Source: Chloroflexota bacterium (lineage in GTDB: Bacteria > Chloroflexota > Anaerolineae > Aggregatilineales > Phototrophicaceae). From it: a DNA stretch of 64,000 nucleotides. Location: contig JACRPS010000005.1 of NCBI GenBank assembly GCA_016223085.1, forward strand, positions 124,001 through 188,000, in the 5' to 3' direction. Of this stretch, positions 25,731 to 57,190 are shown piece by piece (the first letter of the stretch is position 1; every line of letters begins with the position of its first letter). The notes under the pieces are model-generated. The model did not search any database. It was not told where the DNA came from and saw nothing but the letters and a program-made list of their open reading frames with translations. Both the position numbers and the translations under genes were made by a program.

Positions 25731-25754
25731 GGGGTGAGGACGTCCCCTCACCCC
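25731..25754. repeat. GGGGTGAGG/CCTCACCCC hairpin
   Basis: Perfect 9-base arms around ACGTCC, between the glucanase stop and the DUF4037 start. The arms equal the outer arms of the element inserted in folC at 54406-54499. Confidence 0.75.
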
Positions 25755-53350: not shown

Positions 53351-53414
53351 AGTGCAAACGCTTAACTTGATGCCTATGGGCTGGTTTCAAAACCTGCCCC
53401 TACAGACCAAAACC

Positions 53415-54173
53415 ATGAACTACTCATCTGCCGTCTTTTTCGATCTCGATCACACCCTGATTAGCGGGCCGTTTGGCATTGGCGTGTGGCCGACCGTGTT
53501 AAGCGAACTGGCCGAAAAAACCGGCCTTGACCGCCAGGAGATTTACCGCCTGCTACTGGACGAAAACGAAACGCGCCAGCTTGACGATGCGATTCCGGCG
53601 GTGGTAGCGATGGACTGGGACGACATCACGCAGTCGGTGGCGCGCCGCCTGGGGGTGACGCTGGCCGCCAGCGTGCGCGAACTGGCAGCCGCCCACGCCG
53701 CGCAGTCTGCCGTGCTGGACGATGGCTGCGCCGTGCTGCGGGAATTGGCCGCGCCGCACCGGGCGCTGGTGGTGGCAACCAAAGGGCTGGCGAAGTACCA
53801 GCAGCCGGTGCTGGACGCGCTGGGGCTGACGCCACTGTTCGACGCCGTACTGACGCCGGACCGCTATGGCGCGCTTAAAAAAGACCGCGCCTTCTGGGGC
53901 GATTGGCCGGGGCGCGTTCGGTTAGGCATCATGGTTGGCGACCGCCACGACGATGACGTGGCCGGGCCGGCGGCTGTCGGCTTCAAAACGATCTGGAAAG
54001 TGGACGATCTGCCCGACCGCCTGCAGGCCAAAGACCCGTTCGCCCGCGCCCTGTTTTATCCCTATGCACCGGACCAGACACCGCCCGCCGATGCGATCAT
54101 CACCACGCTGGCGGACGTGCCGGACGTGGTGCGCCGGCTGGAACTGGCCGTACTGGGATTCACCGATGGGTAG
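53415..54173 (+). CDS. HAD-family hydrolase (phosphatase)
   Basis: 252 residues. HAD motifs: VFFDLDHTLISG (nucleophile and acid Asp), ALVVATKGLAKYQ (motif II Thr), LKKDRAFWG (Lys) and GIMVGDRHDDDVAGPA (motif IV). A helical cap lies between motifs I and II (LDRQEIYRLLLDENETRQ). It probably dephosphorylates a small metabolite. The frame is open to 53352 but that part crosses repeat remnants. It ends within a decayed repeat that supplies the TAG stop, and folC begins 31 bases later, so they may be co-transcribed. Confidence 0.88.
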   Translation: MNYSSAVFFDLDHTLISGPFGIGVWPTVLSELAEKTGLDRQEIYRLLLDENETRQLDDAIPAVVAMDWDDITQSVARRLGVTLAASVRELAAAHAAQSAVLDDGCAVLRELAAPHRALVVATKGLAKYQQPVLDALGLTPLFDAVLTPDRYGALKKDRAFWGDWPGRVRLGIMVGDRHDDDVAGPAAVGFKTIWKVDDLPDRLQAKDPFARALFYPYAPDQTPPADAIITTLADVPDVVRRLELAVLGFTDG

Positions 54174-54204: not shown

Positions 54205-55524
54205 ATGGTCGAAACCGCTTATCTCAACGCCCTTCGTTCCCTGTGCCAGCCGGTGCGCGCGGCAGATTTCCCGCGTTCGCTCGACCCGATGCGCGCGCTG
54301 CTGGCCGAACTGGACAATCCACAAACGCGCTTCCTGTCGGTCGTCGTGGCCGGGTCGGTTGGCAAGGGCACGACCTGCTGGAGAATCGCACAGGCGCTGA
54401 GGTCACCTCACCCCAACCCCTCTCCATCAGGTGGAGAGGGGCTTCAAACGCTTTCTTCTCCCCCTCTCCATACAATGGAGAGGGAGACGGGGGGTGAGGT
54501 TCGGATTGGTCTGTACACTGGCCCGCACCTGCACAGCTTCCGCGAACGGTTTGTCATCAACGGCGCGATGATCTCCCATACGGAATTCATCGAAGGGGCA
54601 AAAGCCGTCACCATAGCGGCGGCGCGGCTGGATTATCCCTACAGCACGTTTGAACGGGCGACAGCATTGGCGCTGTGGTGGTTCGCGCAGCAGCGGGTGA
54701 GCATTGCCGTGCTGGAAGTGGGCATGGGCGGGCGCTGGGACGCGGTGAACGCCGTGCCGAACGTGCTGGCCCTGATTACGCCCATCGAAAAAGAACATCT
54801 CGCCATGCTGGGCGGTTCGCTGCAAACGATTGCCTGGCATAAAGCGGGCATCATGCAGCCGGGCGGACAGGCAGTGACCGGTACGCAGGACGAAGTGGTG
54901 ATGGACGTGCTGCGAATGGAAGCCGCGCGCGCGGGCGTTTACCTCAACGTGTCGCCGGACGTGGTGATGGCAGCCTGTCGCAACCTGCACGAGCGCAATC
55001 TTACCCAGTGTTATTCCGTATCAACCGAAGCGCCAACCCTGCCAGGCCGTCTGGAAGCTGTCACCGTCGGCAGACGAACGGTGCTGATTGACGGTGCGCA
55101 TACACGGGAATCAGCCGAACGGTTGCGAGCGTGGATGAAACGATACGGAGGCGAAACCGACCCGGTGAGGGTGATTATCGGTATGTTGGGCGACAAAGCC
55201 GTAAACGACGTGCTGGCTGTGTTCGATCAACCGCACTTTCACGTCGTTCTGACGCAAGCGCCGAGCCACCGCGCGCTGTCGCCGGATGCGCTCAATGCAC
55301 AGGCACGTCTGCAACACGCCAGCGTCGAAATCGTGCCCGAACTGAACGACGCGCTGGCGCAGGTTCACACTGCGCCCGAAAGCCTGTTTGCCGTCACCGG
55401 GTCGCTGCGGATGGCCGCCGCCGCGCGGGAGGTGTTTGGTTTACTGTCCCCGGACGAACTCGAAGAAGCGCGGGCGACACGGGCGATTTTTGAGGGTGAG
55501 GATTATCTTCGTAAACTGGTGTAG
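54205..55524 (+). CDS. folC: Folylpolyglutamate/dihydrofolate synthase with an in-frame repeat insertion
   Basis: 439 residues. FolC joins glutamate to folates (and dihydropteroate) using ATP. Landmarks are the P-loop VVAGSVGKGTTCW, RIGLYTGPHLHSFRERFVIN, ALALWWFAQQRVSIAVLEVG with GMGGRWDAVN, ALITPIEKEHLAMLGGSLQT and VLIDGAHTRESAERLRAWM. Between the P-loop helix (RIAQAL) and RIGLYTGPH, 33 extra residues (SPHPNPSPSGGEG...) are read from the repeat at 54406-54499; in other FolC proteins these parts are separated by only a few residues. The insertion is near the active site, so function must be tested. Stop codon TAG lies in another repeat. Confidence 0.88.
   Translation: MVETAYLNALRSLCQPVRAADFPRSLDPMRALLAELDNPQTRFLSVVVAGSVGKGTTCWRIAQALRSPHPNPSPSGGEGLQTLSSPPLHTMERETGGEVRIGLYTGPHLHSFRERFVINGAMISHTEFIEGAKAVTIAAARLDYPYSTFERATALALWWFAQQRVSIAVLEVGMGGRWDAVNAVPNVLALITPIEKEHLAMLGGSLQTIAWHKAGIMQPGGQAVTGTQDEVVMDVLRMEAARAGVYLNVSPDVVMAACRNLHERNLTQCYSVSTEAPTLPGRLEAVTVGRRTVLIDGAHTRESAERLRAWMKRYGGETDPVRVIIGMLGDKAVNDVLAVFDQPHFHVVLTQAPSHRALSPDALNAQARLQHASVEIVPELNDALAQVHTAPESLFAVTGSLRMAAAAREVFGLLSPDELEEARATRAIFEGEDYLRKLV
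54406..54499. repeat. CCTCACCCC nested palindromic element inside folC
   Basis: 94 bases. Outer arms CCTCACCCC and GGGGTGAGG enclose two inner hairpins, CCCCTCTCC-N7-GGAGAGGGG and CCCTCTCC-N7-GGAGAGGG. Read through in frame without a stop. The outer arms recur at 25731-25754. Confidence 0.85.
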
Positions 55525-55549
55525 GGACATGGTGACGCCATGTCCCTAC
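55521..55549. repeat. GTAGGGACATGG palindromic repeat at the folC stop
   Basis: GTAGGGACATGGT-GAC-GCCATGTCCCTAC. The folC stop codon TAG (55522-55524) is bases 2-4 of the repeat. Confidence 0.9.
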
Positions 55550-55570
55550 GATTAACCGCCACAAAAATCC

Positions 55571-55653
55571 AAGTGTCTATCCATACTTCGTAGGGGCACG
55601 ACGGCATGCCGTGCCCCTACTGGCAAATAAAAGAGGTTTACGGATAGGTTCTA
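55571..55653. mobile_element. MITE-like element, copy 2
   Basis: Begins AAGTGTCTATCCATA, core GTAGGGGCACG-ACGGCATGCCGTGCCCCTAC (55590-55620, a 3-base insertion in the left arm), ends CAAATAAAAGAGGTTTACGG and ATAGGTTCTAA. Nearly the same as copy 1 outside the core. Confidence 0.75.
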
Positions 55654-56335: not shown

Positions 56336-57190
56336 ATGCCGCTTCAACCGCCGGTATCACCCAGGCTGAAGTATTATCTGGATGCGTGGGCGCTGTCCGA
56401 TCCCCTGCCGCTGGCTGAAACCGTCACCAGTCAGGTCTACTCCGTCCTCTGTGATGGCACGCGTGTTGTCCTGAAACTGCTGACTCCGATTGGCATCGAG
56501 GATGAACAAACCGGCGCGGTCGCCCTGCGCTATTTTAACGGTCAGGGTGCTGTGCATCTGCTGCGGCATGACGGGCAGGCGCACCTGCTCGAATACGCGG
56601 AAGGGGAAAACTTAACCGCGCTGGTCGAACGGGGTGAGGATGAACAGGCGACGATCATCATTGCCGGTATCCTCAACCAGCTTCACGCCGTGTCTGCCGA
56701 TGTGCCCTCCATCGGCCTGACACCCTTACGCGTTCGTTTCGCTTCGCTGTTCCGAAAAGCGGAAACGGATAGAACCAATGGCACAAACTCCGTTTTTGTG
56801 AGAGCCGCGCGAGTCGCCGAAGATCTGCTGGCTCACCCCCGCGACGTGCGCGTGCTGCACGGCGACATCCATCACTACAACATCCGGTACAGTGACCGGC
56901 GCGGCTGGTTGGCCTATGACCCGAAGGGCTGCCTGATTGGCGAACGAACCTACGATGCCGCCAATACGCTGAGTAACCCAGACGGTGTGCCGGAGCTTGT
57001 CAGGAACGAGGCGCGCCTGCTGAAACATGCCGGGATTCTGGCAGAAGCGATGGGGTGCGATGTGTCGCGCCTGCTGGCGTTTTTTTATGCCTACGTCTGT
57101 CTGAACGCAAGCTGGTACATTGACAGCGGACCGTATCCTCACCACGATCTGACAATGGCGGCGCTGGTCGAACCGCACGTCCTGCGCTAA
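56336..57190 (+). CDS. APH-like phosphotransferase (kinase)
   Basis: 284 residues. It follows the aminoglycoside phosphotransferase fold, closest to the APH(6)/hydroxyurea-kinase type: nucleotide lobe VYSVLCDGTRVVLKLLTPIG with the Lys, catalytic loop VLHGDIHHYNIRY (175-185; Asp177), and metal motif AYDPKGCLIGERTYDAAN (Asp195). These kinases phosphorylate small hydroxylated molecules; resistance is one of several possible roles and cannot be assumed. It starts 6 bases after the PAP2-like gene, so the two probably share a transcript. Confidence 0.85.
   Translation: MPLQPPVSPRLKYYLDAWALSDPLPLAETVTSQVYSVLCDGTRVVLKLLTPIGIEDEQTGAVALRYFNGQGAVHLLRHDGQAHLLEYAEGENLTALVERGEDEQATIIIAGILNQLHAVSADVPSIGLTPLRVRFASLFRKAETDRTNGTNSVFVRAARVAEDLLAHPRDVRVLHGDIHHYNIRYSDRRGWLAYDPKGCLIGERTYDAANTLSNPDGVPELVRNEARLLKHAGILAEAMGCDVSRLLAFFYAYVCLNASWYIDSGPYPHHDLTMAALVEPHVLR

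Follow-up and report, generated by a model that had tools for sequence, protein, structure and literature searches.

The FolC2 gene and its surroundings

In the window (the whole 64,000-nucleotide stretch that was analysed), a second FolC-like gene of the Mur ligase family, here called FolC2, occupies positions 54205..55524 on the plus strand and hosts the element described below. Its reading frame is unbroken from the ATG at 54205 to the stop codon ending at 55524, and the translation of its 439 codons gives a protein of 439 amino acids. Just upstream lies a gene for a HAD-type hydrolase (53352-54173), a relative of which occurs near FolC2 in 5 of the 20 loci examined, the window locus included and several loci ending before that place. 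An aminoglycoside/hydroxyurea kinase-like gene (PF04655, 204.6 bits) is found downstream at 56336-57190. Right after the FolC2 stop, at 55521-55619, there are two more palindromes, which start with GTAGGGACATGG and GTAGGGGCACG and end in the complement. Triplex-element copies in loci L007, L008 and L016 have a similar GTAGGGGCACGG...CCGTGCCCCTAC repeat next to them, and in L076 such a repeat lies within the copy.

The original prediction named the host folC. The family assignment holds, as FolC2 reaches 244.2 bits in a profile search with TIGR01499 (FolC family), above the curated cut-off of 162.65, but the ordinary folC of this genome is another gene. This second, full-profile copy, which the prediction had allowed for, lies at C12:584015-585241 and scores 253 bits. 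About 40 positions of TIGR01499 (200-238) are unmatched in FolC2 and present in the genome's other FolC. Since the aligned FolC2 proteins all lack this segment, the gap is a family trait, and it suggests that FolC2 may use a substrate different from that of the ordinary FolC. Family membership would predict folate ligase activity, but in view of the missing segment folate is a candidate substrate of FolC2.

We surveyed the family with the post-insertion part of FolC2 as the query, and 59 of the 61 genomes gave matches. From a reading of the match table, FolC2 is present in 20 of the 61 (this genome, 16 with near-complete matches, and three with fragments), and the remaining matched genomes contain just the weaker match to the ordinary FolC. 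The best segment of a named relative, a contig from an Aggregatilineales bacterium (Chloroflexota, Anaerolineae), is 70% identical. Outside the inserted loop, the dN/dS against a relative (L057, G060) is approximately 0.26, with 0.19, 0.28, and 0.26 in three segments. Because of its intact frame, this dN/dS, and its retention in 20 of 61 family genomes, FolC2 is, as judged from these comparisons, a conserved and maintained paralogue under purifying selection and not a decaying folC.

Two inverted triplex motifs in a loop of FolC2

The P-loop of FolC2 (GSVGKGTT, 54352..54375, plus strand) and the strand and motif RIGLYTGPHL (54502..54531, plus strand), both located by translation and alignment, stand 5' and 3' of the inserted loop, respectively. 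The 96-bp element between them (54405..54500, assigned to neither strand) has the outer arms CCTCACCCC (54406-54414) and GGGGTGAGG (54491-54499), whose pairing extends by one base to 54405/54500, and two CCCTCTCC hairpins at 54417-54441 and 54461-54484. As single-stranded DNA, the region 54386-54519 folds with -34.2 kcal/mol against a shuffle mean of -19.1 (sd 2.5), corresponding to a z of -5.9, and 0 of 200 shuffles folded as well. The arms and the two hairpins in an open folC-like frame are thus where the original prediction had placed them.

Each half of the element has the layout of an intrastrand triplex motif. The left motif (54406..54441) reads on the minus strand and consists of a C-rich block (54433-54441), a tip, a G-rich block (54417-54425), a 2-nt linker, and a third block (54406-54414); its tip measures 7 nt with the 9-bp stem and 5 nt with an extra A-T pair counted. 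The right motif (54462..54500) reads on the plus strand with a C-rich block at 54462-54470, a 5-nt tip, a G-rich block at 54476-54484, a 7-nt linker, and a third block at 54492-54500. All nine base pairs and all nine purine-motif triads are present in the left half (18/18), and nine of nine base pairs with eight of nine triads in the right half (17/18), while the best triplex score among 200 shuffles of the region was 15/18. The published finder allows stems of 6-15 nt, tolerating a single mismatch in those above 7 nt, tips and linkers of 1-6 nt, and G-GC and A(T)-AT triads (PMC4666352). By sequence fit, the left half conforms to it in the purine-motif class, and the right half exceeds the linker limit, with 7 nt instead of 1-6 nt.

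Each outer arm is the third block of the hairpin beside it, which explains why the two arms can pair, and the inverted orientation of the two motifs makes the element look like the nested palindrome of the original prediction. The inverted arms and hairpins of that description stand, but the structure is better described as two putative intrastrand triplex motifs in inverted orientation. Another inverted pair of CCTCACCCC arms occurs in the window at 25731-25754; the arms are 6 bp apart, with no CCCTCTCC hairpin between them.

In the window FolC2, 52 residues lie between the P-loop and GLYTGPHL, against 23 in 13 of the 18 FolC2 orthologues; three further orthologues have 22, 24, and 26 residues, and two have 40 (genome G060) and 38 (G045), where the extra residues are of unrelated sequence. 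Uninserted orthologues were thus found as sought, 16 of the 18 having no long insert at this place and none of the 18 containing this element. The loop thus exceeds that of most orthologues by 29 residues (+87 nt), so that the insertion itself is borne out and its size, put at 33 residues in the original prediction, is corrected. In an alignment with the solved FolC structure 1o5z, five residues separate the same flanks, against 34 in the window FolC2. An AlphaFold model built from two sequences had a mean pLDDT of 44, too poor to place the loop. Helix-to-strand loops of this kind generally lie away from the nucleotide site.

In the reading frame used, the element encodes PHPNPSPSGGEGLQTLSSPPLHTMERETGGE, and the resulting Pro/Gly/Glu-rich loop includes the stretch PHPNPSPSGGEG...GGEVR. 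Since this frame has no stop codon and the net gain is 87 nt, the element is predicted to be read as a loop that lengthens the protein by 29 residues, and the insertion is apparently tolerated, as had been proposed. Three of the six frames of the window element are open. An unusual scarcity of stop codons in the element was not supported: 3.45 of six frames are open, compared with 3.90 for shuffles and 3.92 for background segments. As a separate observation, a different repetitive tract (SVVSYQ, SVVSCQLSV, or SNQQSAIS) is found in the same kind of loop in the FolC2 of G045 (L029 2482-2580), a membrane protein of G060, and the second ValRS site of G152 (L129 and L294 are among these loci).

Copies of the element in genomes and in genes

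Related copies elsewhere in the genome, as the original prediction had anticipated, were found in the form of 13 further matches at E <= 0.001. Perfect hairpins number 22 in this genome against one for the reversed pattern. The element was matched in at least 15 of the 17 genomes of the genus, and across the class (Anaerolineae) 66 of 150 genomes contain a stricter pattern, the reversed pattern giving 0 of 150. The genus sample comprises 120 distinct copies from 12 genomes, this one included, detected with gaps of up to 40 nt permitted; it derives from 80 regions taken about best first among the matches listed, plus this genome's own copies, and is not a random sample. Triplex scores in this sample are 18 in 77 copies, 17 in 34, 16 in five, and lower in four, so that 116 reach 16/18 or more; of these 116, 90 have a linker of 3 nt. 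Motifs are present on both strands in 23 of the 120 copies. Most two-armed copies are 65-98 bp long, and their outermost pair is complementary in 24 of 27, which gives them the terminal inverted repeats of a MITE. In addition, 67 of 82 perfect hairpins have complementary tip pairs, and copies are often located after stop codons. A search against Rfam returned five matches (three microRNAs, an antizyme frameshift element, and sX4), and we take them as chance because all score far below the gathering thresholds.

We classed the coding flanks of the genus copies with a codon model and kept 116 of them, leaving out three too near a contig end and one in a 35-aa ORF (L175), a false in-frame case whose removal brought the in-frame count from 28 to 27. 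These 27 copies have both flanks in one and the same open frame and are spread over 23 ORFs, which makes the element a palindrome in frame in unrelated genes, as in the Rickettsia type. Three copies have flanks on one strand in different frames, three lie between opposite genes, 47 have one coding flank, and 36 have none. Longer open frames run through several of the copies in the last two classes, which may hide more in-frame cases. Where both flanks are coding on one strand, 27 of 30 copies are in frame against an expected one third (p 1.7e-10). Genus copies are depleted in genes, with 27 of 116 in one frame against 1428 of 2000 random positions, which could contain internal stops (p 4e-25). 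Random positions keep one frame far more often than copies do, and most copies are therefore not in genes. The in-frame copies retain the triplex layout (27 of 27 at 16/18 or above) and do not differ in this from the other copies (p 0.18).

Outside the genus, we took 20 regions from each of three Anaerolineae genomes rich in matches. Copies with both flanks on one strand are in frame in 1 of 1, 6 of 7, and 10 of 14 cases (17 of 22 together), one of the last ten (L282) lying within the first 14 codons of a stop-to-stop ORF, where it may precede the true start. Among all classed copies, 1 of 23, 6 of 21, and 10 of 22 are in frame, against 759, 536, and 601 per 1000 random positions, and the depletion in genes is less clear than in the genus. 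The copies with flanks on one strand in different frames, three in the genus and five outside, could mark either gene junctions or broken genes.

Single domain or family matches cross the insertions in a variety of proteins. In the genus, these are a methyltransferase, an MBOAT protein, a DUF2298 protein, a TMEM260-like protein, an NB-ARC protein, and a type ISP protein, and outside the genus they include SecA (SecA_DEAD), ValRS (tRNA-synt_1), an M20 peptidase, and a prephenate dehydrogenase, among others. The genes for SecA and ValRS are essential. Genome G152 (99% complete) has one SecA_DEAD match, which carries an element copy, and in G125 (98% complete) the single ValS that exceeds the cut-off carries two, so that the hosts include what look like sole copies of essential genes.

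Several sites recur in more than one genome. The linker of a GT4 glycosyltransferase contains a 92-bp copy in this genome (G000), a copy of approximately 70 bp in G065, which resembles the other copies of that genome, and in G060 a remnant. Of 15 orthologues, 12 had a readable linker, and 10 of these 12 are without the element. The same loop of an AAA protein bears copies in G000 and G060. TM-like peptides stand at matching positions in the SecA proteins of G152 and G125, only the G152 gene having a perfect hairpin there, and the ValRS proteins of the two genomes share one site, a second copy being present in G125 only. Such recurrence could reflect tolerant loops that are hit repeatedly, old copies, or copies converted in place. 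Unrelated tracts in loops of this kind (the FolC2 of G045 and the second ValRS site of G152) favour tolerance over need.

Relation to known repeats and interpretation

Holder et al. (2015) described an intrastrand triplex motif, TM/TMECO, in 262 proteobacterial genomes and related it to boxC; in its layout, a C-rich block, tip, and G-rich block are followed by a 3-nt linker and a second G-rich block that serves as the third strand, with the TMECO consensus CCCTCNCCCN3-6GGGNGAGGGN3GGGNGAGGG (PMC4666352). According to the same paper, the TMs of E. coli MG1655 are always intergenic, occur as inverted pairs at five sites, and are tied to genome rearrangement (PMC4666352). The Anaerolineae element likewise consists of a C-rich CCCTCNCC, a short tip, a G-rich block, a short linker, and a second G-rich GGGTGAGG, and inverted pairs are found in both. 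However, the ninth stem pair of the present copies is often A-T, and many Anaerolineae copies lie in frame inside genes, unlike the intergenic TMs reported for MG1655. The exact E. coli consensus matches 0 of the 120 genus copies and a relaxed form 36 of 120; we therefore regard the element as working like a TM and do not file it as TMECO.

Other repeats share part of these features. The Rickettsia palindromic elements (RPEs) are palindromic repeats of approximately 150 bp that lie in frame in many unrelated genes (reviewed in PMC10969869). The likeness is one of description, and we do not file the element as an RPE; RPEs probably belong to other sequence families and are longer than most two-armed copies, which have the triplex layout. 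Some GTAG/CGTC REPs, studied by the Di Nocera group (BMC Genomics 2013), lie inside ORFs and code for 20-30 residues, and these authors suggest that linkers and loops tolerate them (PMC3733652). Short hairpins, dimers, and locations within ORFs are common to those REPs and the element, which differs in having, as a rule, no GTAG or CGTC tag and, at the Y1 loci described below, no linked tyrosine transposase. The CCCTCTCCCXX(X)GGGAGAGGG repeats of Enterobacter sp. 638, of which there are about one hundred copies, often in duplicate or triplicate and mostly at the 3' ends of genes, are read as terminators (PMC2869309); they have the same hairpin core as the element, and the description of the repeats in that paper mentions no third block. 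Among the open-licence papers searched, we found no report of triplex motifs in coding regions or of such elements in Chloroflexota, PMC7015867 adding nothing. In-frame palindromes are already known from the RPEs and the intragenic REPs, and what appears new here is an element of the triplex type in frame inside genes.

We consider it likely that the element is a dispersed TM-like element inserted in frame in a tolerant loop of the second FolC paralogue. Its unit comprises a C-rich block, a tip, and a G-rich block, usually followed after 3 nt by a second G-rich block that can fold back as the third strand, and this strand may also pair in cells. An inverted copy of two such motifs would have entered the FolC2 loop that joins the P-loop helix to the strand after it, probably after the split from G060, with loss in G060 as the alternative, and the loop would be translated, tolerated, and near-neutral. 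Copies probably need no dedicated enzyme to spread. Replication may stall where the strand is folded and then switch templates, which is the weakest step of this account.

A role for the inserted loop, whether as a Pro/Gly/Glu-rich linker selected in the protein or as a folded nucleic acid that regulates the gene from within, seems to us considerably less probable. The triplex architecture kept by all in-frame copies would suit such a role, though it is like that of the other copies, and so would the sites shared between species in the GT4 linker, the AAA loop, SecA, and ValRS. On the other hand, 16 of 18 FolC2 orthologues lack such a loop, as do 10 of the 12 GT4 orthologues with a readable linker, genes are poor in copies, and the same loops take unrelated tracts, as in the FolC2 of G045 and G060 and at the second ValRS site of G152. 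Decay of the host, in which FolC2 would be redundant next to a second folC and the insertion would be one step in losing it, is very improbable. The original prediction had tied this outcome to a second intact folC together with loss of selection on this copy, and a full-profile folC does exist at C12:584015-585241, with profile positions 200-238 lacking from the FolC2 members, but the 439 intact codons, a dN/dS of 0.19-0.28 in all three segments, the retention of the gene in the family, and the shared nature of the missing segment all speak for maintenance.

There is a slightly smaller chance than for a functional loop that the element is an ordinary REP or MITE that a REP-associated transposase (Y1) or another one mobilizes in trans, its third-strand fit being incidental. 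It is short, palindromic, dispersed, and often found after stop codons; REPs commonly occur in inverted pairs; Y1 transposases gave three matches in this genome and are present in all six relatives searched; and a MITE or REP label is compatible with the triplex label. Yet no element copy lies within approximately 1.5 kb of 17 Y1 loci in seven genomes, where we found three lone motif hits only, and a GTAG or CGTC tag (or its complement) stands near the ends of just 2-3 of the 120 copies each. The combination of a tag with a Y1 gene flanked by repeats, which characterizes REPs with RAYTs, was not found among these 120 copies and 17 loci. The flanks of the copies have no common direct repeat by eye and no consistent target duplication, and the 3-nt linker with a third-strand match in most copies is unexpected for a plain hairpin. 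A candidate target duplication at folC, TGAGGT, was rejected, being absent from the flanks of other copies.

Beyond this locus, the TM-like reading leads to a more tentative proposal, which we hold to be possible rather than probable: across Anaerolineae, triplex-forming repeats may repeatedly enter coding genes with their layout intact, sole essential copies included, so that translated, structure-forming DNA would remodel protein loops and may act on transcription, translation, or genome stability within genes. Judging from the copies in frame in SecA, ValRS, MetH, and FolC2, a triplex-type motif can apparently reside in essential coding sequence and become protein. These copies are natural loop-insertion experiments in many enzymes, and they could show whether a triplex inside a gene impedes its transcription or translation. 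They also call for caution in annotation: where a Chloroflexota protein has a Pro-rich stretch of the type PHPNPSPxxGEG or PPLHxMERGxGGE, a repeat may be its source. In two of the ORFs, a DUF559-like sequence accompanies the copies: a DUF559 domain lies within an MmeI-like methyltransferase ORF (L172 3-2126, minus strand) and is directly followed by three triplex-like repeats, and a DUF559-like stretch stands between two element copies in the metH ORF of G152 (L268).
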